NCBI RefSeq assembly: GCF_910596095.1
Contig: NC_056553.1
Location: forward strand, 15,423,291-15,487,290
Source: Thunnus maccoyii
Lineage: Eukaryota; Chordata; Actinopteri; Scombriformes; Scombridae
Direction: 5' to 3'
Length of the DNA: 64,000 bases
A program made the translations under genes and the position numbers. How positions within the stretch are numbered: the first letter of the stretch is position 1; each line of letters begins with the position of its first letter. Below, in pieces: positions 31,691-58,300 of the stretch. Under the pieces are notes generated by a model. The model did not search any database and had not been told where the DNA came from. It worked only from the letters and a program-made list of their open reading frames with translations.

Positions 31691-31706
31691 CGTCACCATA
31701 CCAGTA

Positions 31707-31716: not shown

Positions 31717-31721
31717 AAAGC

Positions 31722-31731
31722 GAAGTGAAAG
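31722..31731 (+). promoter_or_regulatory. IRF/PRDI-like site upstream of sharpin
   Basis: GAAGTGAAAG, six bases after the NRF1-type site, matches the core of the PRDI element of the interferon-beta enhancer (AANNGAAA type). It would suit a gene in innate immune signalling, but it is a single short motif. Confidence 0.4.
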
Positions 31732-32117
31732 CATACGCACCACTATCAAAACACTCAGACAGTGTTACCATTATGTAACGATACTAATACACTAACCTTG
31801 ATGTTAGAAGGGTAATTGGTACGGTGTAGGAAGCTATTAGAGTGGGAAAAGAAACGTCATATCTGCCTGTATCGGAGCTTTAGCTAAAACGGAAGAGGAG
31901 ACCATTAAACCTCTCACTTGGACTGGAGAGTTTCTGGAAGTCGCTCCAAACAGTTGTCAGACTACGCACTTGCTTCCTGTTGTCAGTGTGCTGATTAAAA
32001 CATCCAGCGACGAGACAGGATGTTACCAACGCTGTGAGAGGGAAGATACTTAAACTAAAGGGCTGGTAACAACGTGAGGACAGGAGGTAAATAAACAACC
32101 CTGTGTTTCTTCTCTAC

Positions 32118-32144
32118 ATGAGTCTGCGGGCAGAATGTCGCTGA
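32118..32144 (+). CDS. Short upstream ORF overlapping the sharpin start
   Basis: ATG at 32118 opens an eight-codon frame (MSLRAECR) that stops at 32144, overlapping the main ATG at 32135 in another frame. Its start context is weak (T at -3), whereas the main ATG has A at -3. It is relevant only if the transcript starts upstream of 32118. Confidence 0.4.
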
Positions 32145-35100
32145 GCTCGGACGGGTGGACTCACACCGCCGGTCTCACACCGGACCAGTCCGCCGCTCCG
32201 TCGCACCACCATGGGGCCTCGCAGTCTCAACTTGGCTGCCTCACAGTCCTCATGTCGGTGCGGGTGTCGGTGTGCCATTCGGGTATTCGGCCGCTGTGTC
32301 TTCCGGGAGCAGGTGATGAGTCACTCCGCCTGCAGCTCAGCATGGACCCGGGGAAATCCGGGGAATTCCGGCTGTCGCTGCAGGACAGCACCGGGACTGG
32401 CCGGAGTGTGGTGAGTTCCCAGCTACACAGCTGTGCTGCTGGGCTTGTTTTGATGTGTGTATGAGTGGGGAACTCCCCGTTTGATGAAAACATATCATAT
32501 CATCATCATTTTTAAAATGCTAGATGGGGCATGTAGTGCAAAGATTTGTGTGTGAAACGAATTTCACTTTAATGGGGACCAGCGGGGGTTTCCAACTTTT
32601 TTGGCTTGTGACCAGGGCTAGACTCTGAGAGCAAAAATAACCTGTGGGCCCCTATTGACCCCCTCTACTCTTTCTTTCTATTCATTATGTATGCAAGGCA
32701 CCCATCAGGTAGCCTCCAGAAAATAAAGCAGACAAACAGTCGGAGCTTTTTTTATATTTTGCTGCTTAAATCTCATTTTGCTCCAGGTTTGCTTTGGGTT
32801 AGTTTGTGTTAATTTAATTCAGGGCATATTTATATTTGTTTCGAACATTTTATCATATTAGTATGCATTGTGTAAACATAATATAATAGTCAAGGTATTA
32901 AAATGTCTCTTTGAGATAAGAGAAGATTGGTTATGAGTGTTTTTTGGTACATATTACCCCAAAAACTTGCAATAACCACAAACTTAATTGCCACACAGTG
33001 AACCTGGAGCCTTCAGTCTCTCCAAGGGTCTGGGGCCCAGGGCAGCTGCCTGTTTTAGTTATCCAGCATTGCTTGTGATCCTGTGAAACTAAGCAATAAA
33101 CCCGACCTCTCATTACAGATTTTTTACAGGCCTGGAAAGAGAAAAATCAGATGATACTACTGTTTGTCTTGTTTATTATCCTATGAATCATCTATGGACC
33201 CCCTCAGATTTAGGTTGGGAATCACTGACCTAGAGGACAAAGGTTAAAGCCACCATATTGACAAACACCCATCCTGCTGAGGTGTCCTTGAGCATGACAG
33301 CTCTGGCTGTTCTGAAAGTTACCCGGCAGAGTTAAATACAGAGCCTGTATTGTTGTTTGAGGTGATGATTCAACGTTATGGTAATTTTGGGGCCTTTAGT
33401 TTGTGGCGTTGAATTATTTTGTGTTATACTGAGAGGTGTTTTAAGATTTAGGGTTAGGGTTGTGGACAAAATATTAGAAGCACCTCTAAGTATAATGCAA
33501 TACAATACAAAGGCACGGAAAAAGTTAGATTCAAACACTTTAGTTTTGTCTTTTGGGATAAGATAAATGTTATATGTTATTGTTACATCTACAGTTGGGC
33601 TACAACTAATGATTACTTTCATTGTTGATTTATTGTTTTTTTTGTCCTAAAACCAAAAGATAATCAGTTGAAATGTTAAAATGACTTAAACGATTCACCG
33701 TTTACCAAAATTATGGTCACAGTAATTTTCTACCAGCTGATTAATTGGTAAATTGACCAAGTGTTGACTAAGAGCCAATCTACAGTATAATTCTGTTCAT
33801 TCTTATCATTGGTTGAGGCTTTATTAGCTACCTACTGTAACACTTCCATTTCTAAGTTTGTTACAGCCACAATATTACAATATTGCCAAACCAAGTACAA
33901 ATGCACTCATGCAGTAAGGCATGTATTTGCCTTTTTAGCATGACGTAACCTATGATTCAGACAAAGGCGTACATCGTTTTGCTTCCCCAATTCCCTCTAC
34001 CTCATGTCCTCTCATTCTCGCTCTCTCTTCCTCTTTACATCCAGACCATCGCAGAGTATGATTTGAGGACGGTAAACTATGAGGTGAAGTCACCAAAGTG
34101 CCACGAGCTGAGTTTAGCGGCACCTCCACATGACCGCATTAGTTTCAACTTTCGCTGTGAGCAGGAGGCCCAAGAGTGGGCTACCGTGGTGATGTCATCA
34201 TTGAGAGAAGCACACAGAGGTCAGTCACCCTTCTTGCCAAACACTCAAAAAGATGGAGAAATAGGTAAATATTTAATGCCTTGTAACAAGGCAAATGTGA
34301 ACATTTAAACCTACACATTTGTTATGTATTATCAAGGGGTGGAATTCATTTGCCCTTTAGTAAACTTAGTTTGTGCAAGCTGAGCCTGACGTATTGAACT
34401 GTTTGGTTATTTATTTATTTATTTGAACAAAAGAGTCTTTCAGTGCTTCGCTGGTTGCTTGTTAATATCACTATAATCAATCTCAACCACTGTAACCGAG
34501 CCTCATATTTTGGCTTCAGTGGGAATTTCAATAAATTTCCCTGCGCTTACTTACATAATATGCCCTTGTTTGCCCACTCACTTTCTAATAAAGTACAGAA
34601 AAGTTGTGAATGTAATTGTGTAATAATAAAAACTTACATACTTTTATAACCACTTTGGGCTGACATCACAACAGTATTCAAATAAATGTATGCAGATGGA
34701 TGACTGTGGCTTTATGACTATCCTATTGAACTTACAAACAGCAGCAGAAAGTGCTGCCGATTCAGGAATGTCCCTCTGGAATCCCCCTTGGGCGATTCAC
34801 TGTGCTCAGCCAGCTGGGAGGAGACCTCAGGATGAGATCGAGGACTTGCATAAAGATCTACATTTCTTAGTTGGCCTGGGAGCATCATAGGATTAGAGCT
34901 GCAACTAATGATTAGTTTCATCATCGATTTATCTGCCTGCTACTTTTTCGATTAGTCGATGAATCGTTTTGGCTATAAAATATCTGAAAAAAGTGAAAAA
35001 TGCCTGTTATACCTTCTCAGCTAGTCCGAGGTGATTGATCTTGAAATGTCTTCTGTCTGATCAATGGAACAAAATCTAAATATATTCAGTTTTACTATAA

Positions 35101-38100
35101 TGTATGACAGGAAAGCTCCAAATGCTCACATTTTAGAAAAAGGCTGACCAATGACTAACCATTATTCGATTATATAAGTAGTTCCTGATCATTCACTGCC
35201 GTTCAATTAATGGATTAATTGGCTAATCATTACAGCCAAATGTAGAAGAAAGGATTGTCTGGGCTGCTCTACAGACTTATAAATTGGGAGTTTTTCAGGA
35301 CTGACCTCCCTTTTGTGCATCCAAGCTGATGTAAAATTTGTAGATTCCGTGCTGTAAAGGAGGGTGTAACAGACTAATTAGCAAATTTAACTTCCCTGTG
35401 TAGACAAAGAGTTAAATATTTCAGTCTACGGCAACAGACAGAGCAAAATTAGTCAATAAGAGAAGTCTGTCGTACAGTGTGGAACAGTTAATGTCTCTTG
35501 TTGGTCTCTGTCTTGTGTTTTGTATCTCTTTGTTTAAGTACTTTTCAACATTTCTCATTGGCAGTTGCCCCTCAAGATAATGGTACACAGTGCCCACTGG
35601 ATGGTCTCCATCTTCAGAACACCTCGGCCTTGCAACGAACGGGTGAGTATATTGAAGATCTTTTTACCTCTATCAAATGTTATCTGATTGTATTTTTAGT
35701 TGTACCTCATGGATCCAGAAAACTAATGTCTATTTATTCACTTATTCATTCATTCATTCATTGAATCATTGTTAGCCCCCTAGTGGCTGTTTGGAGGTAT
35801 GGCAACATCCTCTGCACTCGCTTGCCTGTATGTTCACCTGTGTGGGCCTGTCTGTGTTTCCGTGTGCATGCACGTGTGTATGTACGTGTGTATCCATCTG
35901 TAGAAGAAACGTGCATAGAGCTGACCCGAGCCATAGAAGCAGGTGACATGCAGTCTGCTTCTGTCTTTGCTGCCACGCTTGCCCGTCAACATGCCGCGCT
36001 CAAGATCCAACCCTCTGCCAGAGACTATGAAGACACTGAAATCAAGTAGGAGGATGATTATTAAGATTTAAAAATTTCAAAACATTGTGTACAGTGAAAA
36101 ATGTGTTCAATCCTAGACTTATTAACAGTTTTTGTTAAATCTATCACCAATTTGAAGGCTGATGGTTTGTGTTTCCTTTTATCTAATAGTTTGGCTGTTA
36201 TAGTTGAAGATTCTTCTTCATCTTGTTGCGTCACTGTGAAAGTTTTCCCACATATGACTACCGCAGTGCTGAAACAGCAGGTTAGTCTGAAAAATGTTTC
36301 TCTTCTTCACTTTTGCCCTGCTGAATCCAGATCATTCTGCTTGAAAAGTTAGTTTCTCCCTCTCTCTTTCCCTTTCTACCACCTCAGATGTTCCTTGAGT
36401 ATGGCTTCCACCCACGGGTGCAGCGCTGGGTTATTGGCCAGTGCCTGTGCACCGACCAGCGCTCTTTGGCCTCATATGGTGTCCGTCAGGACGGTGACAC
36501 AGCTTTCCTGTACCTGCTGTCAGCCCGCCATGCTCGCTTGACACTCCAGGCCCTCCAGCAGGACCAGGAGAGTGCCCTCCTCCTTGGACCTCCGTCTCTA
36601 TCTCTCCCAACACCTCACATCCTTCCTACCTCTGCAAATGGCCCTGTATCTCAAGATCGGAGACCTTACACCACCTTGCCCCCGAGACTCAATACCAGCA
36701 GCAACACTGGTGAGTGAGGGCATTAATTAGCATGTCGGTCTGTCACAGTGGGTCATACAGTTGTGAATTGTTTAAATTTTCCTGTTTCAATGAACACAGT
36801 AAGTTTACCTTTTTTTGTTCGGTGGTGGTACACTTGTGGATATGTCTTTTCAAAAGTATATTTTAGACTTGGAAGTGAATCAGCGGAAAATTGCCTGACC
36901 TATTTAAAGCCGCAGTACCACACGAAACAAAAGCAGTGCTTTATAATATACTGTGAAAGAAAAACTTCCAGATGCTACAACAATAAAAGAAGATATGATC
37001 TTAGCACAGCAACAATACTGAATACAATGTGATACAGCATATTGTTACACCCATTTTATTGTACTAGCATAATCACAGTACTTATACAAAGCCAAGTTGT
37101 CAGTAGAACACATAGTGGTAAAATTGTTTTAGTGTAGAAGGGCACTTGCATGTATGTATCAAACAGATTCAAAACCATTTCTACACAAGCTTAATGAGAA
37201 AACACACGTGCATGCAGATTTGATACTGGTTGCTTTCTACATTATTTTCTCCTTAAATGTTTTAGGTGGATCAGAGAGAGGAAACATCGGTGAGATCAGG
37301 GATCTCATCAACCTAGAGATGCCTCAACTCAGTGAAGCACTGAGTCCAAACACAACCTCCATCCAGGTAATAGACAGGAGTTATGGTATTGTGATTTAAG
37401 TATGTTTAATTGTTTCGTTATTCACACACAATTTAAAATGGTCAGTGTTTTGATCAAATATGTCATAAGATAAAATATTTAATAAGCCATCACTTGCATG
37501 TAGAGCTTTTTTCACACGTTAAAACATACAGGAGACAACTACTGAAAAGATAAATGGTAAAGTTCAACAAGACTAATTAAACATAAAGAATAAAAATGCT
37601 CATCTGTGCTTCAGGGTTGGTCATGCCCCTCTTGCACTTATATTAACAAACCAACGCGGCCGGGCTGTGAGATCTGCAGTACAAATCGCCCTGAGAACTA
37701 CGTCATCCCGGGGGGATACCGACCCGACGCACTGGAACTCAGACGGATCCAGCAGGAGAAGGAAGCTATCAGACAGTACCAACAGGTAGGAAAAACACAC
37801 ACACACATACAAACACACACACACACACACACACGTACCACTGGGGAAACTTTGCACCCACCCACAGTCTTACACCCACATGTATGTACACATCTACCAA
37901 CAATTTCTTCCACCCACTTAGATTAAAACCTTATTTTGGCATCTGACACTGGGTGAAAAACAAAATTACACCAGCACAAACACTCTGCTCCACGTAAAAT
38001 TAAAAAGGCAGACGTACCATTTGGTGACCATTACATACAGATAAAGAGCAGATACGGGTCAAATAGTATTTGGTAAAAAGGTGAAAAAATAAGGAAAATA

Positions 38101-38802
38101 ATAAAGTGAGGAAACTTGCTTTTATGTACACATATGGAAAAAAAATGCATTAGAAAACTGTGGAAGACATACTTTCTATTCAGATAGCAACTAGAAATTG
38201 CATTACTATTTGCAAAGGTAACAGATAATCCACAGCTTTCTACTGCACTTTTTTATATAATGATGAGGTTTAAATTTTTACTGTCTGCATTAACAGCTTT
38301 CTCTTTATTTCAAATTCTTTTTACACATTATCATTAACATAATTCCTTTTAATGTGTTTGGACTGCCGATGATGGAAATTTCCTGTGATGTAGTCAAGTT
38401 GTTTATCAGGCTTTTTCCATTACATTGTGAACTGCAGAAGAATATGTTCAGTACACTGAGCTTAAAATACCTCACTGTGCTTTCCAAACTTGACACTCAT
38501 TGTTACTCATCTTTTGACAGGGTATCAAGTTCCTCTAATTTGTCCATTAATAGTCAAATCATACACACAATTATTTTGCAAATGCTATGTGACTCTTGCC
38601 TGCTATATTAAAACATAACATGAAAGAAATGGTCACAATGGTGGGGAATGGCGGTAGATATTAGGTGAGGCTCTCTCAGGTTGACTCTCTTCTCTTCTGT
38701 CTCTGTTTTTTTGAAGGAGAAAGGGAGAAGAGAGGTGCTGAGGAGTGCTGGGGCTCAAAACAACTCAATCCTGTTTAACCTGGACCAGGACTACTGAACA
38801 TG

Positions 38803-38851
<49 letters not shown>

Positions 38852-41800
38852 ACATACAAACACACACACACAGGCATACACACACTCAATGTTTATTTAT
38901 GCAAGATTTACTGAAAGTTGTGCACCTATTTAACAATATATGCCAAAAAAATACCAAAAAACCCCCCAAAATCTTTGTATTCTTATATCAAAATCTATGT
39001 GCTTTTGTAGACTTGAATCAACACTGCTCCTGTGAAGCAGTAGAGCCTGACAAATACTGGACTTCAACACCAATAACTGACATTTTTTTTTCTAAAAAAG
39101 GTTTTTTTTCTACATGAACACTTAATAAGAGACATCTTTGTCCCCACCAATATACTGTATGTTGGTCAGGCTCTAGTGAAAAGACTATGAAAGACATTTC
39201 CTTGTATTGACAATCAAGCAGGACAATCATGATCACTGTTGACTTTTAGCATCAAGTGACTTTTTAATGAACTCTTAAAATGGCGGTTGTCACAGAATTG
39301 AATGTATTAGCCTAGTTTTTAACTTTGCACTGTGTAATTGTATATACTGTCAAACAGATTAAAATAATAAATAAATGTTTATACGGTAAACAAAGTGTGT
39401 GTCTGTGTGTGTATGTATGTGTGTGAGGAATAATAATTGTTATTGTCTCCAAAAATACCTGGTTTTGTGCATTACTAAACTCATTATGCCCCTCATGACC
39501 AAACCTGAAGGGAAGTGGTATATGTAACATACGTTTAATACCCCCAACAACACCGCTCCTTGTCCCAGGCAAAGGAAGCGGAGCGCAGGGAGAATTTTGC
39601 ACGGATGGTGATGATGGATGGCCAGGACTTGGTGCCTAACCCAGAGCATGTAGACTGTAAGATCTGCTACGTGGAGCTACAGCCAGGGGACGGTGTCCTG
39701 CTGAGGGAGTGTCTCCACTGCTTCTGCAGGTAAGATTTGTGAAGAAGGGGAATTAAGGATGCAAGGTGTCTTGTCAAGGGAGGGAAAAAGGGAAAGAGTT
39801 TGGGGCAAGAAGGGTCAGTGTCTGTGCTGGAGCAGTGCAAGTAACATGACAAGATTTTTTTCCCTAGTCTGATTAAATAACTGTGATAGGCTACTGTTTG
39901 TGCTTGTGCTTGCCCAGAGACTGCTTACGTTCAGTCATCATGCTGAGTGAGGAGCCGGAGGTGCCCTGTCCCTACAGAGATGACACGTATGCCTGTACCT
40001 GTTCCCTGCAGGAGAGGGAGATCAGAGCTGTGAGTTACACCAACAAACACCTTTGATCTGACACACCTGGCTGAGATACAGTGCAGTTCTAACTACTGTA
40101 TTAGCAGGTAATATTAGCATCCTTAACCATCATACCATCGAAAAATGTAAGTCAAGCTTAGTCTACATTGTGTTGTAATTTATAGCTAGCAAAATCAAAT
40201 TAGTAGGTCATTGTCATCTATTACCACAATTCACTTATTTTGAGCTGTACAAAGCTGTTGGAAATCTCATTTCAACACTCTCAGAAGTAGCCAAGGAGAC
40301 GGAGCCACTGCAGGGATTTGTTTTTGACCCAGACAGTGGCCCAGCTGACATTAAGCAACAGTTAGCCATCCGCTCCACATGGCCACAGCTGCTAAATGTT
40401 GCACAATAAACTGTGATCCAACCAGGACTGCTGAAGACAGGCAATAGCTTGATGGTTAATTGAAAAGAAACAGGATATCTTGTGAGAAAAGGGCTAGGGT
40501 TAGGGCTCTGAACTGACAGCCAGTCATACTACTGGACATCTTTGCCCTAAAAAAACTGACTATACACCTTAATCTAATCGCATAAAGTAGAAACAAGCTG
40601 TTGTTTTGTTCACCTGCTTTTAGGACTCAAATTTGTAACTCAGATTATAACCTTTTGCTCACATTACTTGCATTAACTAGCCTCTCCGCTTTGTTTCCCT
40701 TTTGTCATTAACAGTTGGTTCCTGCAGAGGAGTATGAGCGCTGGCTGCAGAGAGGTCTGTCAGTGGCAGAGTCTCGATGTGAGGGCAGCTACCACTGCGC
40801 AACTCCAGACTGTCCAGGCTGGTGTGTGTACGAGGACACAGTCAATGTCTTCCACTGCCCTGTCTGCAAGAAACACAACTGCCTGATTTGCAAGGTATTA
40901 AATATATACAGTATATACACACAAACAACATCATTTTGAGGAAGTTGTCTTGTTGTGAACACATGACAAGATGTGTTAAAAGTGCATGTAAACATGCACA
41001 TACATATAACTATGGCACAAGTGGGGTTAAGATTGCACCATGTTAATCAATCAGTCAGAGCTAATTAATGACAAGTCCTTTGAAAGAAGCCAGTGACACT
41101 ACACAGCTTAGAGAGGTCACATTTCCACTTGGTCGCCTCAGGCTAAGTGCTGTTTAAAGACATAAATGACTCTATCTTTATGCATCAGAGACTCAATATC
41201 TTTTTCTGTCCCTGTTGCTTTTATTCTTCTCTCCTCAGTTTATCCATGAGGGAATGAATTGTAAGCAATACCAGGATGATCTTGCAGCTCGCGCTATAAA
41301 TGACTCTGCTGCAAGACGGACAACACATCTACTCAAGGTGAGCTGTAAAAGGCTCCTGTGTATATACTGTCTAACTCTATTTTTGAACTGCTGTTAAATG
41401 TAAAGTTGAGCAGAATTTGTCTGTGGCACAGCCAATCCATAATTAACTGCAGATATCAATTATGTTAACGTCCAGAGGTCGATGGCGTTGTGTTCTATGT
41501 GCTTACAGAGCAGAAAGAGGCATCACTTAACCACATCCTCCCGTTTCACCTGCCTTCTTTCTTCCTCTTGATCTTTTGTTCTCTATCTTACTCTCTTTGT
41601 GTTTCACTAACAGACTCTGGTGCAGTCAGGGGAGGCAATGCACTGTCCCCAGTGCGGCATCATTGTGCAGAAGAGGGACGGATGTGATTGGCTGCGCTGC
41701 ACTGTCTGTCACACTGAGATCTGCTGGGTCACCAGAGGGCCCCGCTGGGGTCCAGGGGTAAGAAATCTTTCCTGCTTTTCTTGCATGTCTCATCCACATG

Positions 41801-42120
41801 TCATTGCATCAACTTAACAAATGTACCTACCTGTCCTCAATTGTTGATGGTCTACATCTGTGGAATGGCAGTATGATAAATTAACTTTGGTTAGATAGTA
41901 TCGATACAGAAAAGTCTCCCCACATGTTTTGTTTTTTAAGTTTTGACCCTAATGAAGGTATACATCCAGACCTTGTTGTTAAAAGACAAGTTTTTAATTG
42001 CATGATAATTCAAAGGTTCTTACTCTGGTCCTTTCCAAGGGTCCTGGAGACACCAGTGGAGGATGTCGCTGCAACGTCAACAATCAGAAATGCCATCCCA
42101 AATGTCAAAACTGTCACTGA
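32135..42120 (+). CDS. sharpin: SHARPIN/HOIL-1 composite LUBAC protein with RBR ubiquitin ligase (long form)
   Basis: Exons 32135-32410, 34045-34219, 35565-35642, 35904-36045, 36190-36280, 36388-36709, 37266-37366, 37615-37785, 39569-39729, 39918-40029, 40715-40894, 41239-41337, 41614-41757, 42040-42120 sum to 2133 nt: 710 residues and a stop, all phases matching. Domains: SHARPIN-type N-terminal PH fold (about 35-150, ending [19 protein letters not shown]); LTM helix ([19 protein letters not shown]) for LUBAC tethering; ubiquitin-like domain (LAVIVED to [12 protein letters not shown]), the HOIP-binding part in LUBAC; NZF zinc finger [21 protein letters not shown], which reads linear ubiquitin; then RING1 (CKICY...CFCRDC), IBR and RING2 ([19 protein letters not shown]), ending NCH. 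Mammalian SHARPIN stops after NZF; HOIL-1 lacks the PH fold. The oplah neighbour supports the sharpin name; rbck1-like is the alternative label. Confidence 0.9.
32586..33230. repeat. Dispersed repeat with inverted ends in sharpin intron 1
   Basis: The left end GGGTTTCCAACTTTTTTGGC and the right end AGGTTGGGAATCACTGACC are inverted relatives of the GGTTCCCAAC / GTTGGGAACC ends seen at 11918 and 12052. The interior is degenerate. Confidence 0.5.
33594..33770 (+). repeat. Dispersed teleost repeat, copy 2
   Basis: Starts GGGCTACAACTAATGATTAC, then ATTG/GATTA-rich sequence; truncated relative of the copies at 28720 and 34889. Confidence 0.5.
34889..35240 (+). repeat. Dispersed teleost repeat, copy 3
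   Basis: Starts GATTAGAGCTGCAACTAATG and ends in ATTAATTGGCTAATCATTAC. Same family as 28720-29100 (opposite orientation) and 33594-33770; in the sharpin intron before the exon at 35565. Confidence 0.55.
37615..38797 (+). CDS. sharpin: Alternative terminal exon of sharpin: short, ligase-less isoform
   Basis: After the NZF exon (ends 37785, phase 0), an acceptor TTTTTTTGAAG precedes 38717-38797. This reads in phase [18 protein letters not shown]... and ends LDQDY-stop. Joined to the eight upstream exons it gives 1437 nt, 478 residues: PH-LTM-UBL-NZF, the mammalian SHARPIN layout. Two overlapping AATAAA signals (39366-39375) followed by a GT-rich tract (39393-39424) would end the transcript. 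From memory, human RBCK1 also has a splice form lacking the RBR (RBCK2), a precedent. Whether this exon is used needs transcript data. Confidence 0.65.
37793..37833. repeat. (CA)n tract just inside the sharpin NZF-exon donor
   Basis: The CA run begins about 8 nt after the donor GTAGGA at 37786, in the sense orientation of the transcript. CA repeats near splice sites are known hnRNP L binding sites. Confidence 0.9.
38804..38872. repeat. (CA)n tract just after the short-isoform stop codon
   Basis: CA repeat starting 6 nt after the TGA of the alternative terminal exon; it would lie in that isoform's 3' UTR. Confidence 0.9.
39366..39375 (+). terminator. sharpin: Poly(A) signal of the short sharpin isoform
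   Basis: Two overlapping AATAAA hexamers, with a GT-rich downstream element at 39393-39424, all inside the intron between the NZF and first RING exons. This is the standard layout of a functional cleavage/polyadenylation site. Confidence 0.6.
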
Positions 42121-42368
42121 GAATGTCCAGAGTAGCTGATTGTAGAAGGGAATGAGGGATTGAACTTGAAACAAACTATTGTCTGTTACAGGGAAAAGAG
42201 GAATAATGCACATAAAAAGGTATATTTAAGCCAAAATTGCAGGTTTGATACATAAAATGCATCCCTATTCTTATAACTGGAGACATTCTCAGTTTCCTCT
42301 TTGCAAATTTCTAACCATAACAAAATAATACGTGGCTTTTCGGTGTTATCATAATAACAGAAAGTATA

Positions 42369-42441
42369 CAGTACCAGTCAAAAGTTTGTACACACTTTCC
42401 CAGAATGAGAAAGTCTACACAAACTTTTGACTGGTACTGCA
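42369..42441. mobile_element. Tiny Tc1/mariner-like palindromic element in the sharpin 3' UTR
   Basis: Left arm CAGTACCAGTCAAAAGTTTG and its exact reverse complement CAAACTTTTGACTGGTACTG on the right, with partly paired inner arms and a loop of about 10 nt. TA precedes the left arm. These ends look like Tc1-family inverted repeats common in fish, here with nearly everything internal deleted. Confidence 0.7.
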
Positions 42442-43566
42442 TGTTGGCATCAAGCTCTGCATCTCATAAGCAAGGAAACGAGGGATGTATGATTTCAACA
42501 TTTCAGTGACCAACATAAATTAAACTGTCACATTTGGCGGTAACGATGAGAAGTGTGGTTAGAAGTATGCTCTGAAAGTATCAACTTTTATTGCGTGTGG
42601 TGCCTTTTCAAATGACTGCACTGCAAATGTAGCGATACAGAGAACAGTGTTCTGTTTTGGTAGTTACATACTGTACCTGGATGCATTAAATTAAAGTGAA
42701 GTGGCCTTATTCTTGTGCACAAAAGCTGTAGCAGGGTGTTTATGATGAAGTTTTCTGAGAAATGTGATGAAATCCTTGTTAGTCCTTGATATGCTATTCT
42801 CGGCAATGAAATAGATCAGACTTATGAGTCTGTGGAGTTCTATGTAGTTGTATATTTTTTGTGTCTGTGTGATAGTGTGACTGCGTGTGTGCTTTGTCAC
42901 CAAAGAGGTTTGAAATGAGTGTGTGTCTGCTTATTAATCAGCATTCATCTGTTGTTTTTACCATCTGACTTTCAGTGAAACCAGTCTGATCACATTTTGT
43001 TTGTCACTCGCATATGTCTGAATTTAACAAGCGGTGCAGCCTGGGGGTGAAAAGGTCACTGAGACAGTGTCTGCTGATCAGCTGAGAATTGAATACTGAC
43101 ATGCTCAATAAATGAGAGAGTGTATTGATTAATAGTCAACTATTAATTGCAATACTTGAATATTATCTATAAGAGAAGGCACATGTACACATTTAGTTGA
43201 TAAGCTCATATTTCCGTTAAGGAACCCAAATATTATTTATAAGGTGCATGGTGGTATTAGCTGGCTTACTAAATGGCTTTTCCTGTTTTTTATGGTCTGT
43301 GAAAGTTTTCTATCCATGGTAATATTTTGAATATTTTCTAATTCATGTATGCATGAATTTGTTATTCTAATAAGTTAATGGATTTTCACAACATATTCTT
43401 AACCAGGAGAAGACCCTCTGTTCACTCAGAAAAAATAAGATTAAATACCACAGTATACCCTGGACTACACTACTGCCCTGCACTGACAAGCCATGAATAA
43501 CTTAACTGTTACTTGTGTTCAAATGTCAGCACTGTGTTGCTGATGTACCGTTGTGCCTTAATGATC

Positions 43567-45336: not shown

Positions 45337-46376
45337 GTGAGTAAAGATGCCGGTACGGTCGCTGTCTCTTCAAATCCTTATTGCTTCTGCATGGTTGAGG
45401 ATATGCATGCTTCCATGCACACAGACAGTGAATGGGCTGTAGCTACAGCATGCACACAGCCGCTGAGTCGGGTTGGAGCCTTAACAATTTGTTTAAAGGT
45501 TGTTTCGGTCGCTTTGAGATAATGCAGTGTTCCTCATTTATCCCCAGCCATCGCTTGTTGTCTCTCGTAGCCCAAATATTACTCAATTCCTGCTCAGTCC
45601 TCATGTTTATGATAGTTTTATCTTACTTAATGGTGCCCGGAATGATCAGAGATAATCCTGCAGGCTTCCCCTTGGATTTGCATGTTTTCATGTGATGCAA
45701 TATTCCTTTAAAATTTCATCGCCCTGCTGCAGTTTTGTTCTTTGTGGAAAATTTTTGTTTTTAAAGTCACAGCAGCCTGTCACCTGACCCTTGTTTGCAA
45801 ACAATAGCTTCTACACATGTAATACTGTGACCTTTAAATAGACTTAATAACATGTTTAAACTCACAATTCTGAGATGTTTCGTTAAAGAAAATGCTGAAA
45901 ACCTACATAAATATGTGACAGTGAAGCCGAGTTAAAATGCCAAATGATTTACAAAAATATCAGCATAAGCTGTGGAGTTTAGATGCATCTTTTGTGTTGT
46001 AAATGTACAGATTACTGAGAAATGTGTGTGTGAGTGTGTTGTAAGCAGCAAAATTAAAGGAGCGATGGCTTATATAAGCTTAGTGGAGGCCTAACAGATA
46101 CCACCACATTGGGAAAACAATGGTCCCAGACTGAATTCCTGAAAGAGATGATAGATTAGAAATGCAGGCAGAGAGAGAGGATCATAACAAATGCAATGTA
46201 TCTGTGCAACTGTATTGATTTTGTGAATGAAAAGTGTTTCTCCTCCCTCCCTTCACTTTCAAGCAGTATCTCACCTGTTCCCTTATCACTACAGTGTTTG
46301 TTACAGAGCCGATAATCTCCCCCTCTCTGTCTCCAGTTAGTCACAGATTCAGAAGCAGCTTTTTTCTCTCTTCACC

Positions 46377-49300
46377 ATGGCTGAGACTAAGGGGAAATTC
46401 GACTTTGCCATCGACCGGGGTGGCACCTTCACCGATGTATTTGCCCGGCTTCCTGATGGCCGTGAGAGAGTCCTGAAACTACTGTCCCGCGACCCCCAGA
46501 ACTACAAAGACGCTCCCACTGAGGGGATCCGCAGAGTCCTGGAAGAGGTAACATGATGGGATAGATGGATGGATGGATAGATGTATTAATACATACTGTA
46601 CTTCTCTGATATATTAGCAAGCACTTTTTTAGTTCACATTACGTTTATACAAAGAGTTTTGTGGGATTAGAGGTCAGGAGATTAAGAAATACAGGTGGAG
46701 GTAGCCTGAAGTCTTAAATGTTATGTTACTGGAGAGTAAAAGGCTGGATTTGGATTGAAAACCTGTATTAGATGCCCTTCACTCACTCGCTAACACAGAG
46801 TAAGTGTGGTTGAGATTTCCAAGAGAGCTGTCTTGATTTGAGCGTCTCAAATCCCAAACTATGCCCAAATGAATTTTTAGATAATCAGACAGTATGAGAG
46901 CAGATAAAACATGTCTGCAAACACAATCAGACAACTATAGAAAGAGACGCCATATTATGTAATATCATATAATATCATGTCATACAGTTACATCATCTGT
47001 ATTGACTGTATATGACATATTTCTGTGCATTTCTTCTCAGGAAACAGGCCGCGTCTTTCCTCGCGAACAGCCCGTAGACACCTCTCTGATTGGCTGGATC
47101 AGAATGGGCACAACGGTGGCTACCAACGCTCTGCTAGAGAGAGAGGGAGAGAGGACCGTTCTGCTGGTCACGAAGGGCTTCAAGGACTTGCTGCACATTG
47201 GCACACAGGCCAGGCCAAAGCTGTTTGATTTGGTTTGTAATGCTTGTTTTCTTAAACCGTGAAGATATACATACAGGTGAAAAAGTACACAAATTAATTA
47301 CTTGACCCTGAGTAGCCACTCACAAACACACTCCAGTAGCTCATCATCATTATGCCTTTTTGGCTGTAGCCTATGTGGTGTTCATGAGTATCCTTGGCAC
47401 AGGGCTAATGCCCGCTCAAGGTTTAGTCATTATCTCCTGTTAGAGAGACAGGGGTGAGGTCTTGGAATTTGCACCAAGACCAGTGTACCATTAATGGTTT
47501 AAGTGGTCACTTATCTGTGAAGCTACAGAGCAAACTGTCAGAAATGCCGTGGAAGAAAATGTTAGATAGAATGACACTGTCTGTTATTCTCCTATAAACT
47601 TTCTTTGGTTTATTTTAAGTGCTATTCACATACAGTAGAGCTAAACTATATCTATATGACAAACACATGGAAGTTTACCCTGATCACTGACTTCGTTACT
47701 GTCATGCTGACATCATTTGGTATGCATGTTGCAATATGTTATTCTCATTCTTATCTGTATGTCATTGGCATGTGCTATTTGTCAGATGTTTTTCTTATCA
47801 GTGCACCTGCTCTGAATTTACATAACGTATGGGTGTCTTTGCATTCAGGAGGTGGCAGTGCCTGAAGTGCTGTATGAGGAGGTAATAGAGGTCGATGAGA
47901 GAGTCGTCCTCCAGCAAGATGGCTGCCAGCTGCCTAGGAAAGATCCCAAACGTGTTGTCACAGGTGTGAAACAAAACTATTTGTGCTCATTTTTTAAGTG
48001 TCGTAATACTAATGCTGATAATCAGCATTAGTATATTCTGGGGCTCTACTGGAATATCTTTGCATGGTTTACATTTCAAAAGTTAATCTTATACTGGCCC
48101 TTAATGCAGCCCCTCAGTTCAGCCTCTGTTTGAAACAGGCTGTTTTAGCTCTTAAAGAGCCCCTACCGATGAGCCCAATCCAATTGGCCAGCCCCAGAGG
48201 CTACATAAATAAACAATGGAACAACCTTAGCAACACTGGCTATGGAACAGCCCTGGATTTTGACTTGAAAGCGGCATTTTTACATAAGTTCACCTCAAGT
48301 TTTGGAACTTTGACCATGTTAAACACAGACATCTGACATTATAACAGTATATAAATGACCGATCAATCACAAAAAACATGATATGTCCCCTTTAAAGTTT
48401 TGGTCAGAACCCTAAATGAGCCACAGACCCATTCACTTGGCTCCATGAATGGCAATGTCAGTCTGATGGTTGGTCCATCACTTTGGTCCAGATTGAAATA
48501 TCAGTTTGTACGTATATAAATTTTGCACGTATATCCATGGTGCACAGTGGATGAATCCTTCTGACTTTGGTAATCTTCTGACTTTTTATCAGGTCAAAAA
48601 TATTTATAACCACGTACATGCAAAGTAATGACATTCCCATCAGCGTCAGCTGTGCTTTGTGTTTAGTGCTAATTAGCAAATGTTAGCATTCGAAAAATGC
48701 TTAACTCAGCTGGTAAACATTAAACCTGCATTAGCAATGTTAGCATTGTCACAGAGAGCATTTTAGCATGTTAATGTTAGCATTCATTTCAAAGCACCAC
48801 TGTGCCTAAGTATAGCCTATATAGTATAGCTAGTAGAACTGCTGTCATGGCTGAGGACTAACTAATTCTTGTTTTACTACTAATACTTGCTCATTTATTT
48901 TATATTTGTTTGAGTCAATATATATCATATGAACATATACATATTTTTTACGCATATTTTTTGTCAACTCAAAAAGTCAAAACCCCGTCTTTTCTATCTT
49001 TTTCCCTCAGTTGTACTTCCTTGAGTTCTCCATTCTATCATTCAGTATCTCTTCCAAATTCTGTCAGAGGTTACAGAAATACAACAAACAAAATACACTG
49101 TATATTTGGTTGGGAATGTAGGAATGTAATCCACTGACACACACATGGTAAACTGCTTTGGATGAGAGCATTGACTGAATACTTTACATTATTTGAGATA
49201 ATCCTGATAATCTCTGCGTGTGTGCTGGTGTTCCTCAGGCAGCACAGGGGATTCTCTGGAGGTGTGGAGGGAGCTCAATCTGGAGCGCGTGGAGAAAGAC

Positions 49301-52300
49301 CTGAGAGGAGTTCTGTCCCGCGGGATCACCAGTCTGGCTGTACTTCTGCTGCACTCATACACGTCAGTACAGCTTGTTTCTGTACTTTTCAGCATGGAGC
49401 CATATTTGCTCAAACTCCTAATCTCATTTCTTCTCTCTATTATCTCTCTGTTTTTAATCCCTTTTTCCTTCTCTCACAATCTCCATGCATGGGACAGATT
49501 TTATTAATTATTTTTACTGCCACTTTACTACTTACTTATAGTACTCTCTTGTTTTTCTTCTCTCACTGTCTCTGTGGGAGCAGTGTTATGTACACTGTAC
49601 ATGTCAGAGGTGTCTGGTGTCCAGTAGCCTTTTTTCTACTGTGTGTGCAACCCATGTGATTTACTGGGTGGAAGTTCATGGTTTTCTTCCCATCTCTTCT
49701 CTCTTAACTTCAAGTCTATTCCCAGTTGTTCCTTGAAATCCATTCACATTTGAAGAAACTACCTCTGGTTTCTAGTAGTGAAAGCTATCAAAGCAGCTTG
49801 ATTCAATTGAAATGTGTTCAAGAAATCAGCAGTTGACCAACATTTTAGCTTCCTGTTGCATATCACAGACAAAGCACACATGCTTTTCTTTCCAATAGGA
49901 AAAAAGGAAGAAGGTGGTTTTGAGGCTTTTAAGTGATTACACAAACACAATATACTGTGCAGCAGCGGTGAAATTACATAAGAGCTATACTGTATGTTTG
50001 ACTTGCATTCCAGCTCCACCACATTCCTCTCCCCCTCTCTCCCCTCTCAGATGGTCTGACCATGAGAAAGCAGTGGGTGCCCTGGCGCGTCGTCTGGGCT
50101 TCACCCAGGTGTCTTTGTCCAGCGAGGTCATGCCCATGGTGCGGGCAGTTCCTCGGGGTTACACCGTCTGCGCCGACGCCTACCTCACACCCAAAATCCG
50201 GCAGTATTTAAAGGGCTTCACCTCTGGGTTCGAGGGTGCCCTGAAGGTGTGTCCTGTGTTTTTTTCTCACATCAGTATGTGTGTTGCTTTCTCAAGTACT
50301 TAGTCTACTATGGAGGTATAAATTAGGTCATTCATGCTCTAGGCCATGCAGAACACAGACATGATTTTCCAGATATTCCAGTAGCTCTGTAGTGACGGTT
50401 TAAAAAGTGGACAAGTGAGGGAAATTATCCTTTCACCTACTGGAAAACTAAAACCATTATTTGCCACAATACTTTTTAAAATCAACATTTATTATCCTTT
50501 TTAACAGAAAAAATACAATTTTGCATACAGAGTCAGATATGTGATTTTGAGGTTTAAAACTACTTTAATATCTAAGTTCACATTTTTTTGTAGTAGTGGC
50601 CAAATAGCTTTTATATATGACTTAATTACATCTGACTGTTAATGATGATCTCCTTTTTCCCTGTGTCCTCAGGATGTGGACGTGCTGTTCATGCAGTCAG
50701 ATGGAGGTCTGACTCCCATGGAACAGTTCTGCGGTTCACGGGCCATTCTGTCCGGCCCTGCAGGAGGTGTGGTGGGATACGCCATCACTTCATACAGCCA
50801 GATGGAGAAAAAACCTGTGATTGGCTTTGACATGGGTGGTGAGTCAGGGGAAACGTGGAGGGAGTAAGTTTAGCACCTTGAATAAACAGCAAGTACACAG
50901 ACTGTGGGAGTAACTTCCTGGTATTGTTTTGTAGTTCTTTTTTGCACAGTCTTAAACTTATTACATGTTTACTTTATTTCTGACTTATACTTATTTTTAC
51001 ACGATCTTTACAAATGGTATTAAGCACAAAAATTTAATTACATCTGGAGAAACTTTTTTAGACTTCATGCTTCTCGTCCTCCTGACTCCTTCAGTGTTGT
51101 CTTTCCCTCCAGGAACATCCACTGATGTGAGTCGGTATGCTGGCCAGTATGAACATGTGTTTGAGGCTACCACAGCCGGGGTTACCCTGCAGGCACCTCA
51201 ACTGGACATCAATACTGTGGCTGCAGGCGGAGGGTCAAGACTCTTCTTCAGGTCTGTCAGCGAATCAACATCACTCACATTGCTCTTGAATATTCAAAAC
51301 TAAATTTCACAGTGATTCATATTACAAAAAAAGCATGCATTAGTGTCAGCATGCAAGTAAAGTGGCAGTATTGTTAAGAGTTAATTTCATTTTTGAACTT
51401 CATCAAAAAGAGTGAACATTTCCCAGTAGCAGTTTTTATCACTGACCACATAATTTATGCGTACATCTTGGTTCCAGTAGATCATTTACTCAGTGGAGCA
51501 CTTGTAAAGGTTGGAATGTAAAGGAACAGCCTTTAATTGAAAGACCTTGTGTGTCTGAAAAGTTGGACAACAAATTAAGAAATTTAAAGTATTATATCAA
51601 TCTTTTCAGAATAATGAAGCTTTGAAAGTTTGAGATTTGATGTAATCTTGCTAAGATTCTGGTCATGTACTCTCACAGACACAGTTCTTTTTCTGTTTCT
51701 CTGATTTTAGCTGTTTTTAATAGAACTCTATTAATTAGATTTGTATATTCAATTATTTACTTAAAACTCTTTTATGCTCCTTTTTCCTGTTCTCCTTTCT
51801 CTGTTTTCTCTTCTTCCTTTCTCAGATCAGGGATGTTTGTGGTTGGACCAGAATCTGCAGGTGCGCATCCAGGACCGGCCTGCTACAGAAAAGGTAACAG
51901 ACTTATTGTTATTATTCCTCACCTTTTCCTTTATTTCTGTTTTACCTTTTCCAGTTTAGCTTCTTTGGTAGATGGTAAATTATACATTTCTACCTCACAT
52001 TTTTCACCCTCAGTGGTTTCACCCTCACTCTTTAAACCATTCTCATTCATACATCTGTCTGTCAGACAAAAATCGCAGGATTTGTGTGTTCTGATGTCCC
52101 TTTCCCTTCCCCCTTCCCTGAGTTGGTAATCGGGTTCAGCTGTGTGAGGGCTGTAAATTGGCACAACTCCAAGCTTCAGATGATATAACTCGGGCTTGCC
52201 TCATAGCTCTCAGTTGGAGCTGTAACTTGTGCTCTTTATTGTTGATGTTCCCTGTGGGAGAGTTGGGTAGTGGCTGGCTTAATTTTCTCCAACATGGTCT

Positions 52301-55300
52301 CCCGTTCCTCTCTACAGTTGTACTTGCACATTTCTCAGGCATTCACAATACTCATAAAATATGTTAACAAGATTGAAACACTAAATGGAGCATCATGCAC
52401 AAAAACAGTCTTTTAAATATATGCACATGACTATGGAAAAACATAATATTGATTCCCTGTTGGATTTTCCTAGGTGGTCCTCTGACTGTGACCGATGCTA
52501 ACTTAGCCTTGGGTCGCCTCCTGCCTTCCTTCTTCCCAAAGATCTTTGGGCCCGGAGAAAACGAACCACTGTCCTTAGAGGAGACCATGAAGCATTTCCG
52601 TCATCTGAGCCAAGAGATCAACCACTTCCTGTCTTCTAACCAATCACAGGCACTAATACTTACAGACATATTCTATATTAAGAGTTCTAATTGTCTTAAT
52701 AATTATGTAAGGGAGTATTAATTATAACTGGCAAGTCATTTTTTGTGTGTTCATTTGCAGGTTGGTGCAAATGGCGCCCACCACTCACACAACAGCACGT
52801 TGCCAAACAACCAATCACAGATGAGTGTGGAAGAGGTTGCCATGGGGTTCATTCGTGTTGCGAATGAGGCTATGTGCCGGCCAATCAGAGCTCTGACACA
52901 GGTAATTTGGATATTGAAGTCTTAGTTCTAGCTTGATAAAAAAGTAACACTGTATGTCTTTAGATTTGTGGCTGTGTTGAACATTTAAAATCATGATTTC
53001 GTCTCTTTCCCTTCTCCAACCTCCCATACCCTGATAGGCTAAGGGCCATGATACATCTCAACATGTGCTGGCATGTTTCGGGGGGGCAGGTGGCCAACAT
53101 GCATGTGCTATTGCCAGAGCCCTAGGGATGAAGACTGTATTTATACATAAGTAAGGTTGATAGATTGTGTTTATGTGTTGTATGCATGTGGCTGGGAGAG
53201 AGAGTGTGTATCTAACACACACAGAAATACAGTATAACAGGTAATTTAAAATTGCACAATGGTCGTAGCAGCTCCTTTTCTTTTATCTGTTCATTGACAA
53301 CAGACAACATAATCCATATTGATGTAATGTGTGTTTGTGTCCTAGGTACAGCGGCGTGCTGTCGGCCTACGGTCTGGCTCTAGCGGATGTGGTGGAGGAG
53401 GTGCAGGAGCCGTGCTCACTGCAGTACGAGCAGAACTCTTTCACTGAGCTCAACCGCAGGGTGGAGCAGCTCTCAAAACGCTGCCACGATACACTGTGCG
53501 CACGCGGATTCACCAGGTCGGCACCAACACATACCACATGCTCATGCTAACCTCATGCCTCACCAGGTGTTTGTTGTCTACCACGATATATACAAAAAAA
53601 AAAAATACCATGTTGATTTTCCCATTGAAATACCAGTAATGTTACATTGTTTGAACAATCTTTGTAGAAGACAAAAGTGCACCAGACTAAAGCATTTTGT
53701 GTTTCTTGTCCTCTCAGCGGTCAGATTACCACTGAAATTTTCCTCCACCTGCGTTACAAGGGCACAGACTGTGCTCTCATGGTTACCGCCGCCGGTCACC
53801 CCAGCAATACCCAGTCCTGTCGAGCCGGCGACTTTCACAGCGCCTTCACTGAACGGTTAGCTCTTTGTTAACGCATTTGTCTGTTTCATTGTTTCAACCA
53901 TGTTTTCACTTATGAGTAGATTAGATGGCAGTTTACTCTTCTCTCTGCCTATTTTTATTCTATTTACACTGTATAAGCAAACACAACATCAGGTTAATGT
54001 GTCCTTTCTCCATAAGAGATAAGCTTGGTAAACTTTGGAGCGGAGATTTGTTTACACTTCTCATGTTTTCTTATGTTCCCTCTAACCTGTACATTTCTTT
54101 CTCAAACCCCTCCTCTGTTCTTTTTTTTCCTTTCTAGGTATCTGAAGGAGTTTGGCTTCACCATCCCAGACAGACCTATCATGGTTGATGACATCAGAGT
54201 GAGGGGTTGTGGCAAATCTGGTATCAAATCAGTGTATAAAACAAAGATGGGACAAGGACAGGCCAAACCTGTCATGGTAAATGAACACACACACGTACAC
54301 ACACAATTGTACAACTTGGAACAAAACAGAAGTTGATACTAATTTGTTCTTCACTGTAGATGACAAAGTGTTACTTTGAGGATGGTTACCTTGACACCGC
54401 TGTGTATCTATGGGAGGAGCTGCCGTGTGGTCACAGCATCCAGGGACCAGCCATCATCATTGACAAGAACAGGCAGGAATTTTACACTTACTACCATTAC
54501 TACCTTTCATATGTATATCTTTTGTCATTATAGTATTTTTTATGCTTAATTTATCTAATACTTTTTTGTTTTTAAAATTCCAGATGTTAAAATATGTTAA
54601 ATATGGTTAAATGCTGCCTGTTTTGTTGCATTGTTGCTTTTCCAGTGTGAAATTTTTATGGACATGAGCACATATTCTGCTACCTTTACTTTTAAAGTAA
54701 ACCCGGTCTTAATTGAGGTCTTTAAATGCTTTCAAAAATCAGTAATACTGTATTTAACCTGTATAAACATCTGTTCTTCTATAATTTGTATTTTTTTTCT
54801 CCTTCAGCACCATCCTGGTGGAGCCGTGCTGTGAGGCCTGTCTGACAGAAGGGGGCGACGTGTGCATGACTGTAGGCTCTGACCCTCACTGTGCCCTGGG
54901 CACAGAGCTCAACACTGTGCAGCTTTCCATCTTCTCTCACCGCTTCATGAGCATAGCAGGTCAGTGAATGTACAGCTACAGAGGAAATGGGATGGAGAGC
55001 GATGAATTGGGGAGAATGAGGAAAGAGCAAAGAGATTGGTTGATTTAAATTATTGGGTTTAAAAGAAGTGTTCTCTTTCTTCACTTTAAGTTTTTAGTTT
55101 CATATTTTACTGCTCGTCCTTTCCTTTAACGTGTCTATCAGCCTGCTCAGTTCTGCTCCATCTTTCCCCGTCTACAGAACAGATGGGCAGAGTTCTCCAA
55201 AGAACCTCCATCTCCACCAACATCAAGGAACGTCTTGACTTCTCCTGTGCTGTGTTTGGACCAGACGGCGGTCTTGTGTCCAACGCACCACACATCCCTG

Positions 55301-58300
55301 TCCACCTGGGTGCCATGCAAGAGACTGTCCAGTACCAGGTGAGGGATGTGTAGGTGTTTGTGTGTGTTTTTCTGAGTGCAGATATGTCACTGAAGCAACA
55401 CAGACAGAGTGAATGAAAGTATATGCTTCTTGTCTGCAGATCAGATCACTGCAAGGCAATCTGAAAGAAGGAGATGTGATTCTGAGTAACCACCCATGTG
55501 CTGGAGGAAGCCACCTCCCAGACCTCACAGTCATCACACCAGTCAGTCTGTCAAGCTATTATTCAGCATCCTTGCTCTCTTTAATGTCACTGGTTTCTTT
55601 TTCTTATACACCTCTCCTGTCCTTTTCTAACTCGATCTCATTCCCTCCTTTTCATCCCAGGTGTTTAGAAAAGGGGTGAGCAGTCCAGTGTTCTTTGTAG
55701 CCAGCAGGGGGCACCATGCTGACATTGGAGGCATCACTCCGGGCTCAATGCCCCCTCACTCTACCTCCCTTCAACAGGAGGGCGCTGTCTTTATTTCCTT
55801 TAAACTTGTCACCGGTGGGGTCTTCCAGGAAGAGGGTAAGACAGGAGGAGATCAGGCCCCTAAGAAGTGTGCCAGGCTTTGAAGCCAATTTGGCATTTTT
55901 CCCTCACACAATCATGTGAAAAGGAACTGTAAAACAGCCCACCCAGAATAACTCATTTCACTATCAGACTTTGATCCATTCGGTCTGATCACATTTGGAA
56001 AGTCTAGAAGAGCTGCACGATCCAGACAAAGTTTTGTCAAATAACAATAACAAATAACAAATAGCTCATACTTATTACAACTGCCAACCATTTTCCAAAG
56101 CATACCATAAATGTTTTGCGTGATTACCAACCTTCCCTGGCAGGAAAACTCACAAAACTACCAGTGTGCTCCTGCATGGAGAGCTCACAGAATCATTGTT
56201 TTGAGTCAACATGTGCTGAGCATTTTTAGTCTGTCTTCTTTAACATTCACGTCACTTTCATCCTTCTTTCTTCCCATAATGATCTTGTTTGTCCCTCTTC
56301 TCCCTGCTGCATTCTTCCCTCGGCTTCTCTATCAGCTGTAACTGAAGCCCTGATGGCTCCAGCCCAGTACCCAAACTGCTCTGGGACTCGTAATCTCCAT
56401 GACAACCTGTCAGACCTGCGGGCTCAGGTGGCAGCCAATCAGAGAGGCAGCCAGCTGGTGGGGGAGTTGATTGACAGCTACGGGCTGGCTGTGGTCCAGG
56501 CGTACATGGGGTACATTCAGGTAACCGTGGCTGCAAGTGAAACAATATGAAAGAAAAGCAAAAATATTGTATTTCTGAGAAGTAGTGATAGTAAGAATCA
56601 CAGCCTGTGTGACCTTTGTGTTTCAGAGTAATGCAGAGCTGGCAGTGAGGGATATGCTGAGAGACTTTGCACATCGTCGACGGCAACAGACAGGCGCCTT
56701 GGAGGTGGAGTCGGAGGATTTCATGGATGATGGGACGCCAATCAAACTGCGGGTCCAGATTAATGAAGAAGAGGTGTGCACGGAGAATCTCATTGTTTAG
56801 TAAATAATCCTGACATTTTGTCACGCACAAACCCAGAATATAAATATTACAAACTTACTTTAACAAGAGGTCAGCTCATTACTTACATGTAATAAAATGT
56901 AAAAAACCTCCATCACCACAGGGCAGTGCGGTGTTTGACTTCACAGAGACGGGGACAGAGGTTTGGGGGAACTGCAATGCTCCTCGGGCCATCACCCTCT
57001 CTGCCCTCATCTACTGTCTGCGCTGCATGGTGGGACAGGACATCCCCCTCAATCAGGTGAAGATGGTTATTCTAGGAAGTTTATTCTAGATGGGGTTTAA
57101 GTTATTTGTAAGGTTTGACTTTGTGTTTTTTGGTAGGCAAGCTCAGAGCAGCTTTGGGACACCAGATGCTTTTAACACACAGGAAAATCCTTGTACTTAA
57201 AAACACATTAAAAAAATGTTAATATTCATGGTTTTATTAATCAGCTTTTCCCTTTTTTTACATTCAGGGCTGTCTTGCACCAATCAAAGTCATCATCCCC
57301 CCGGGCTCAATCCTCCAGCCTTCCCAGAATGCAGCTGTGGTTGGAGGAAATGTACTCACATCCCAGAGAGTGGTTGACGTCATTTTTAAGGCGTTCGAGG
57401 TGTGCGCCGCCTCGCAGGTGAGAAAGTGGGGGGGGGGGGGGGGGGTGGGCCAACATGTCTCTGTGTGCATGAATGTAGTTCTACTTGTGTTGCCTGCTAA
57501 TTTGTTGGCATTGTTATTATCAGGGCTGCATGAACAACATTTCGTTTGGCAGTGAGAAGATTGGTTACTATGAGACAGTTGCCGGGGGAGCTGGGGCGGG
57601 GCCAGGCTGGACTGGGCGCAGTGGAGTTCACAGTCACATGACCAACACCCGCATCACTGACCCGGAGATTCTAGAGAAGAGGTGAGACATAAGATTTAAA
57701 ACAACAAGGTGCTGATTGTAAAGCCTTTGATTATAATACTTATTGTAATCTGTATGTTTCTGTTTGCTGCTGTTTGTCTGGTGTTCAGGTATCCAGTAAT
57801 TTTGGAGCAGTTCTCCCTGCGGCCGGGCTCAGGAGGTGCAGGGAAATACTGCGGTGGAGACGGTGTGATTCGGAAACTGATGTTCAGGGACCACGTGGTT
57901 CTGTCTGTACTGACTGAGAGGCGATCCACCCGCCCGTACGGCCTCCAGGGTAAACCGTCAACCTTTGAACGTCTCTACAACACTCCTCAGCAGTCAGTGA
58001 CCAGTGGCCTCTTTTCTTCTAATGTTTATATTGTCTTTTCTCTCTGCTGGTCAGGGGGTGAGGATGGTGCTGCAGGGCTGAACCTGCTTCACAGAGCAGA
58101 CGGTAGAGTCCTCAACCTGGGAGCCAAGACCAGCATCAGCATTCAGCCCGGGGTAAGACTGCACAATATGTGTGTTTGTGTAATAATTCTTTATTTTTTA
58201 CTTAACTGGATTTTTTTTTGCAATTGCATGAAAAAGCTATGTATTTTAATTACATGATTTCATTCTAAAATGCTAATGATACACACATATTGTAAGTTTT

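Follow-up and report, generated by a model that had tools for sequence, protein, structure and literature searches.

The window analysed here is a 64,000-nucleotide stretch of contig 21 (NC_056553.1) of the fish Thunnus maccoyii, and it contains, at positions 32135 to 42120, a gene that joins the domains of SHARPIN to the RBR ubiquitin ligase of HOIL-1. SHARPIN is part of the linear ubiquitin chain assembly complex (LUBAC), an immune ubiquitin machine, in which it is regarded as a purely non-catalytic adaptor, and the mammalian protein is not known to have an RBR. Comparison of genes and predicted proteins leads us to consider it likely that the contig 21 gene (C21) is a SHARPIN that has retained a HOIL-1-type RBR and possesses two alternative ends, the ligase having been lost separately from mammalian SHARPIN and from a second SHARPIN of this genome on contig 12 (C12). 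An earlier reading of the same DNA, referred to here as the original prediction, described fourteen exons encoding a SHARPIN PH fold fused to a complete HOIL-1 ligase. The anatomy of the locus is richer than that account, in which neither the RBR-less C12 gene nor the alternative RBR-less end was seen; the latter is formed by a predicted exon, 9a, located downstream of the NZF exon and upstream of the RBR exons.

The fourteen exons originally described join in frame to encode 710 residues followed by a stop codon, and all 13 introns have GT-AG boundaries; the junction between exon 8 (ending at 37785) and exon 9b (starting at 39569) is predicted from splice sites, phase and homology. The SHARPIN-like amino terminus is confirmed by a Pfam match to Sharpin_PH (PF16764) at residues 34-151 (2.1e-56), which is followed by the LUBAC tethering motif (LTM) at residues 178-219 (1.6e-18) and by the NZF, a RanBP-type zinc finger at residues 397-421 (1.3e-6). 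In phmmer searches of the PDB, where the SHARPIN chains matched are fragments, the UBL matches the UBLs of both SHARPIN and HOIL-1, and the LTM-UBL segment is closer to SHARPIN (5y3t_C, 127 bits) than to HOIL-1 (5y3t_A, 101 bits). Residues 432-710 align with the RBR of human HOIL-1 (8eaz_A, 409 bits, E 2.5e-121), in agreement with the claim that the ligase module is complete, while the four RING/IBR matches that Pfam gives in this protein are weak and all below the cut-offs; a Pfam IBR scan of the genome returned 16 matches, neither C21 nor rbck1 being among them. Over 279 aligned residues, every one of the 26 cysteines of human HOIL-1 is retained, as are six of its eight histidines. Cys660 of the tuna protein aligns with human Cys460, mutation of which, according to an excerpt of PMC6613137, abolishes HOIL-1 activity, and the segment after the NZF carries a Y-x-P motif that excerpted text of PMC10511788 describes in HOIL-1. 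The gene thus has the PH domain and the ordered LTM, UBL and NZF that define SHARPIN, as well as the LTM-UBL-NZF-RBR series with a RING2 catalytic cysteine that defines HOIL-1/RBCK1; of its two predicted products, only the short form stops after the NZF without an RBR, as mammalian SHARPIN does.

To place the gene, its LTM-UBL segment was compared with those of SHARPIN and RBCK1, a check that had been proposed for the UBL-NZF region. The resulting five-row tree separates mouse SHARPIN, C21 and C12 from mouse HOIL-1 and the contig 3 rbck1 (99/98), and this sequence evidence identifies C21 as a SHARPIN orthologue. Searching the genome with the 710-residue protein recovered SHARPIN genes on contigs 21 and 12 and rbck1 on contig 3, and the four Sharpin_PH matches in the genome belong to two genes, C21 and C12. 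The rbck1 gene, for which a search had also been suggested, is intact (L031:3112-9036). Because a separate rbck1 exists, the genome holds two RBR-bearing accessory genes, as had been anticipated for a fish LUBAC, and the idea that the C21 gene is rbck1 itself was rejected on the strength of the separate gene and the tree. Relative to human HOIL-1, the contig 3 rbck1 has a four-residue gap in RING1 and reads CKTEI in place of CHTEI in RING2 (lysine for histidine); the RBR borne by SHARPIN keeps both the full RING1 length and the histidine of CHTEI, and is more HOIL-1-like than rbck1 at these sites.

The exon structure and the RBR distances bear on how SHARPIN came to contain a ligase. From the LTM exon to the carboxyl terminus, C21 and rbck1 have ten introns each, all ten in the same order and phase, and eight of the ten lie in identical alignment columns. 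Among these eight are all six RBR-side introns. The intron preceding the LTM also agrees in phase with that of rbck1, its position being within one column. The two genes agree in the length of five RBR exons (161, 180, 99, 144 and 81 nucleotides); the sixth measures 112 nucleotides in C21 and 100 in rbck1. Over 275 RBR columns, C21 is identical to rbck1 in 159, C21 to human HOIL-1 in 170 and rbck1 to human HOIL-1 in 175; 24 columns are shared exclusively by C21 and rbck1, and 35 exclusively by C21 and the human protein. Had fish rbck1 supplied the RBR through a fusion later than the fish-tetrapod split, the C21-rbck1 identity should be the highest of the three; that it is the lowest argues against such an event. 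The shared introns and the RBR distances together argue that the RBR was within SHARPIN before the fish-tetrapod split, from which it would follow that mammals and C12 lost it separately.

The original prediction preferred an ancestral composite gene over a fusion specific to fish, and the introns, the RBR identities, the tree and the separate rbck1 all support that preference. The fusion alternative proposes that SHARPIN lost its RBR early and that a fish ancestor regained one from rbck1 or from a tandem rbck1 copy. Recombination between two homologous genes in the intron that follows the NZF would likewise preserve the intron phases, and mammalian SHARPIN is not known to have an RBR. Yet the C21 RBR has no excess identity to that of fish rbck1 (of 2000 bootstraps, 52 had C21-rbck1 reach rbck1-human and 177 had it reach C21-human, which is moderate support), and the event could be no younger than the fish-tetrapod split and would require a gain as well as the loss in C12. 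We therefore regard a fish-specific fusion as improbable, although SHARPIN-RBCK1 recombination may have occurred before the split.

The second predicted end of C21 is provided by exon 9a, which joins exon 8 in phase 0 to give a 478-residue form with the SHARPIN domains and without the RBR. It is followed by a pair of AATAAA hexamers and then by a GT-rich tract, an arrangement that resembles a normal poly(A) site. The acceptor of exon 9a has 18 pyrimidines in 20 positions but an A at -3, and that of exon 9b has 13 in 20 and a C at -3; splicing to exon 9b would compete with cleavage after exon 9a. Exon 9a and the last exon of C12 both open with EKGRRE, and over these six codons they differ by three synonymous and no nonsynonymous changes. 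When both strands of the window and of loci L029, L030 and L031 were scanned, EKGRRE was encoded after only two of 12,257 AG dinucleotides, namely those of these two SHARPIN short exons (four others match at four of the six residues), and exon 9a as a product of chance was rejected. The rbck1 locus (L031) contains no exon start resembling EKGRRE at four or more of its six residues. By this homology, the short exon is older than the divergence of C21 and C12. A CA repeat occurs soon after the short-exon stop in both SHARPIN copies (window 38798-38880; L030:2570-2620).

The C12 gene encodes 435 residues that comprise the PH, LTM, UBL and NZF domains and then EKGRREDRGEPGLSSS before the stop codon; it lacks the NZF tail, which C21 retains together with the Y-x-P motif. 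A profile built from the RBRs of C21, rbck1 and human HOIL-1, which recovers all six RBR exons of C21 (itself among the sources of the profile), finds nothing better than E 4.3 and no RBR remnant in 20 kb scanned at the C12 locus, so a hidden RBR there was rejected. Between the short forms of C21 and C12, dN is 0.287 and dS 2.18 over 427 codons, values by which their divergence is judged old and constrained.

Several points weigh against a SHARPIN that kept its ligase from an ancestor and now chooses between two ends. On the ancestral side, two of the ten introns shared with rbck1 fall in linkers that do not align, the bootstrap support for the RBR distances is moderate, and the case for ancestry is built from one fish genome and from human and mouse fragments. 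Synonymous sites between C21 and C12 are saturated (dS about 2), which is why constraint on the RBR is judged from how well its protein sequence is conserved. After their first six codons, the short exons of C21 and C12 differ in both length and sequence. The genes upstream of the two loci (a Rab effector at C21, a DEAD-box helicase and an AAA ATPase at C12) are not known as neighbours of human SHARPIN, and no neighbour is common to the two loci in the stretches compared. On the side of the two ends, a canonical poly(A) signal precedes the RBR exons, which might be reached only rarely, and the 12 residues of exon 9b that precede its first methionine are poorly conserved (two of 12 identical to human HOIL-1, four of 12 to rbck1) and thus provide no argument against a separate RBR gene.

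These last two points would also fit a locus divided into two transcription units: an RBR-less SHARPIN that stops near 39.4 kb, and a downstream RBR gene, separate or reached by run-on. The AATAAA pair and GT-rich tract do lie between the two parts, and in-frame ATGs occur soon after the start of exon 9b (MVMMDG). The acceptor of exon 9b nevertheless coincides with an rbck1 intron site in column and phase, and heads an exon of the same 161-nucleotide length. CpG observed/expected ratios near exon 9b are 0.14 (39000 bin) and 0.33 (39500 bin), with no enrichment, as compared to 0.76 in the 32000 bin that contains exon 1, the maximum among bins 31500 to 42999. Two units consequently appear unlikely to us. 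A further reading, in which the RBR exons survive as a relic that is not expressed and the short form is the only product, is favoured by the poly(A) signal ahead of them and by a C12 gene without an RBR; a relic would have decayed, however, whereas here six intact exons retain their splice sites and all 26 cysteines, and the RBR is 61.3% identical to the human sequence as compared to 63.3% for rbck1. We give this reading very little credence, and a single SHARPIN gene with an intact ligase and two ends remains our preferred interpretation.

The features of the window are listed in Table 1. The proximity of SHARPIN to OPLAH that had been pointed out is upheld by OPLAH exons downstream on the same strand. 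At the C12 locus, GPAA1 and EXOSC4 lie downstream on the opposite strand, and OPLAH, FOXH1, GPAA1 and EXOSC4 are all genes near human SHARPIN at 8q24.3. Because each locus keeps different genes of this human neighbourhood, the two look like copies of one ancestral segment, probably produced by the teleost genome duplication, although the upstream genes do not fit that neighbourhood. When window open reading frames (ORFs) of at least 35 residues outside the gene were compared with 80 kb of C12 sequence (L029, L030 and L037-L042), six matches with E<=1e-4 were obtained, which we took to be repeats. Broken pieces resembling reverse transcriptase occupy 20536-22529 on the minus strand of the window, the part tested (21765-22298) matching RVT_1 at 2.3e-12. 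HOIP, sought in loci L001-L008, was not recognised there.

Table 1. Features of the window and the evidence by which each was assigned.
Feature	Position	Strand	Evidence
Rab-effector exon, MyRIP/melanophilin type, upstream of C21	10880-11494	+	Rab_eff_C, 1.7e-37
Exon 1: start Met, first half of Sharpin_PH	32135..32410	+	ORF, GT donor, Pfam
Exon 2: second half of Sharpin_PH	34045..34219	+	ORF, Pfam
Exon 3: linker	35565..35642	+	spliced ORF
Exon 4: LTM	35904..36045	+	PF25393, 1.6e-18
Exon 5: first part of UBL	36190..36280	+	ORF, phmmer against PDB
Exon 6: second part of UBL, linker	36388..36709	+	5x0w_B (SHARPIN UBL), 5y3t_C
Exon 7: linker	37266..37366	+	spliced ORF
Exon 8: NZF, NZF-tail segment with Y-x-P motif (YRP)	37615..37785	+	Pfam and PDB matches
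Exon 9a: predicted alternative last exon	38717..38797	+	phase 0 after exon 8, acceptor, C12 homologue
Short-form 3' untranslated region, poly(A) signal	38798..39400 (3' end approximate)	+	AATAAA at 39366 and 39370
Exon 9b: linker, first part of RING1	39569..39729	+	ORF, PDB, RBR profile
Exon 10: second part of RING1	39918..40029	+	ORF, PDB, RBR profile
Exon 11: IBR	40715..40894	+	ORF, PDB, RBR profile
Exon 12: end of IBR, linker helix	41239..41337	+	ORF, PDB, RBR profile
Exon 13: RING2 with predicted catalytic Cys660 (codon 41683-41685)	41614..41757	+	ORF, PDB, human alignment
Exon 14: zinc-binding carboxyl-terminal tail, stop	42040..42120	+	ORF, PDB
OPLAH, next recognised gene	46341..55879 (three tested ORFs; gene extends beyond)	+	Pfam: Hydant_A_N 46341-46553, Hydantoinase_A 50649-50864, Hydantoinase_B 55631-55879
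FOXH1 exon, downstream of C21	62860-63831	-	phmmer match (Forkhead box protein H1, 1.3e-25)

C21 was compared with the closest known systems. It resembles mammalian SHARPIN in the order of PH, LTM, UBL and NZF, in the grouping of its LTM-UBL and in having OPLAH nearby, and mammalian SHARPIN has the architecture of the predicted 478-residue form; the long form differs from it by a full RBR and a HOIL-1-like NZF tail. With HOIL-1/RBCK1 it shares the run of domains from the LTM to the carboxyl terminus, the rbck1 introns, the full set of cysteines and the catalytic cysteine, but unlike HOIL-1/RBCK1 it has an amino-terminal Sharpin_PH, clusters with SHARPIN and coexists with a separate rbck1. Comparable to the short form is RBCK2, a splice variant of RBCK1 without the RBR. 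According to the title of a 2008 paper, this variant inhibits the ligase activity of RBCK1. In excerpted text of PMC6044281, RBCK2 and HOIL-N are splice forms of mammalian RBCK1. In these forms, as in the predicted C21 short form, alternative processing omits the carboxyl-terminal ligase region; they arise from RBCK1 and have no PH, whereas the C21 short form would come from SHARPIN, with a last exon and a poly(A) signal of its own. Excerpted text of PMC6044281 also states that the LTMs of HOIL-1L and SHARPIN fold together and that the UBL of each binds to the HOIP UBA region, and an excerpt of PMC8245127 states that HOIL-1L adds ester-linked branches to chains made by LUBAC. In the mollusc Aplysia, as far as the excerpted text of PMC9334734 goes, there is a single HOIL1 gene (LOC101863809) without a separate SHARPIN. 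Of its four isoforms, the one that has no TRIAD is offered by the authors as a possible functional analogue of SHARPIN. Aplysia HOIL1 is therefore like C21 in being one gene with an isoform without the TRIAD, predicted in the case of C21, and unlike it in lacking a separate SHARPIN; as described there, it fits an ancestor in which one gene yielded two kinds of product. According to the excerpted part of PMC5090701, both SHARPIN and HOIL-1L are conserved across the species compared there, from human as far as Xenopus, but are not in Drosophila. No report of an RBR-bearing SHARPIN appears among the literature matches listed or in the text excerpts, where the Aplysia remark alone concerns an isoform lacking the RBR in the role of SHARPIN, and fish gene databases may already list the architecture.

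We infer that both ends of C21 are used, that the long form is an active enzyme and that the products join LUBAC, as well as the order of losses outside this genome, and on this basis propose how the gene might work. A single promoter region would give rise to a transcript in which a choice is made after exon 8: inclusion of exon 9a with cleavage at the poly(A) site that follows it would produce a classic RBR-less SHARPIN of 478 residues, and skipping of exon 9a would join the six RBR exons to produce a PH-LTM-UBL-NZF-RBR ligase of 710 residues. Both forms would take the same seat in LUBAC, with the LTM paired to that of HOIL-1, the UBL on the UBA of HOIP and the NZF on linear ubiquitin. The long form alone would pass ubiquitin via Cys660, probably in the manner of HOIL-1, to serine and threonine hydroxyls of LUBAC subunits and their neighbours. 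The relative use of the two ends would then set the amount of ester-forming ligase in LUBAC, which the short forms (the 478-residue form and the C12 protein), consisting of binding parts only, would be expected to dilute.

The structure of C21 suggests that mammalian SHARPIN is a trimmed form of an older enzyme. More tentatively, and with slightly less than even confidence, we propose that SHARPIN began as the RBR-less last-exon product of a HOIL-1-type gene, that a gene with both ends persists in this fish as C21, that the ligase-free state became fixed at least twice (in C12 and on the line leading to mammals), and that the choice of ends in fish acts as a switch for the amount of ester-forming ligase in LUBAC. 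A SHARPIN with an intact RBR and an RBR-less ending would explain the origin of SHARPIN and make the origin of the three-part LUBAC testable in fish, where one genome offers a natural contrast between a SHARPIN with a ligase, a SHARPIN without one and HOIL-1. It would also bear on why the HOIL-1 ligase tempers LUBAC, as fish could tune the dose of such a ligase by RNA processing.

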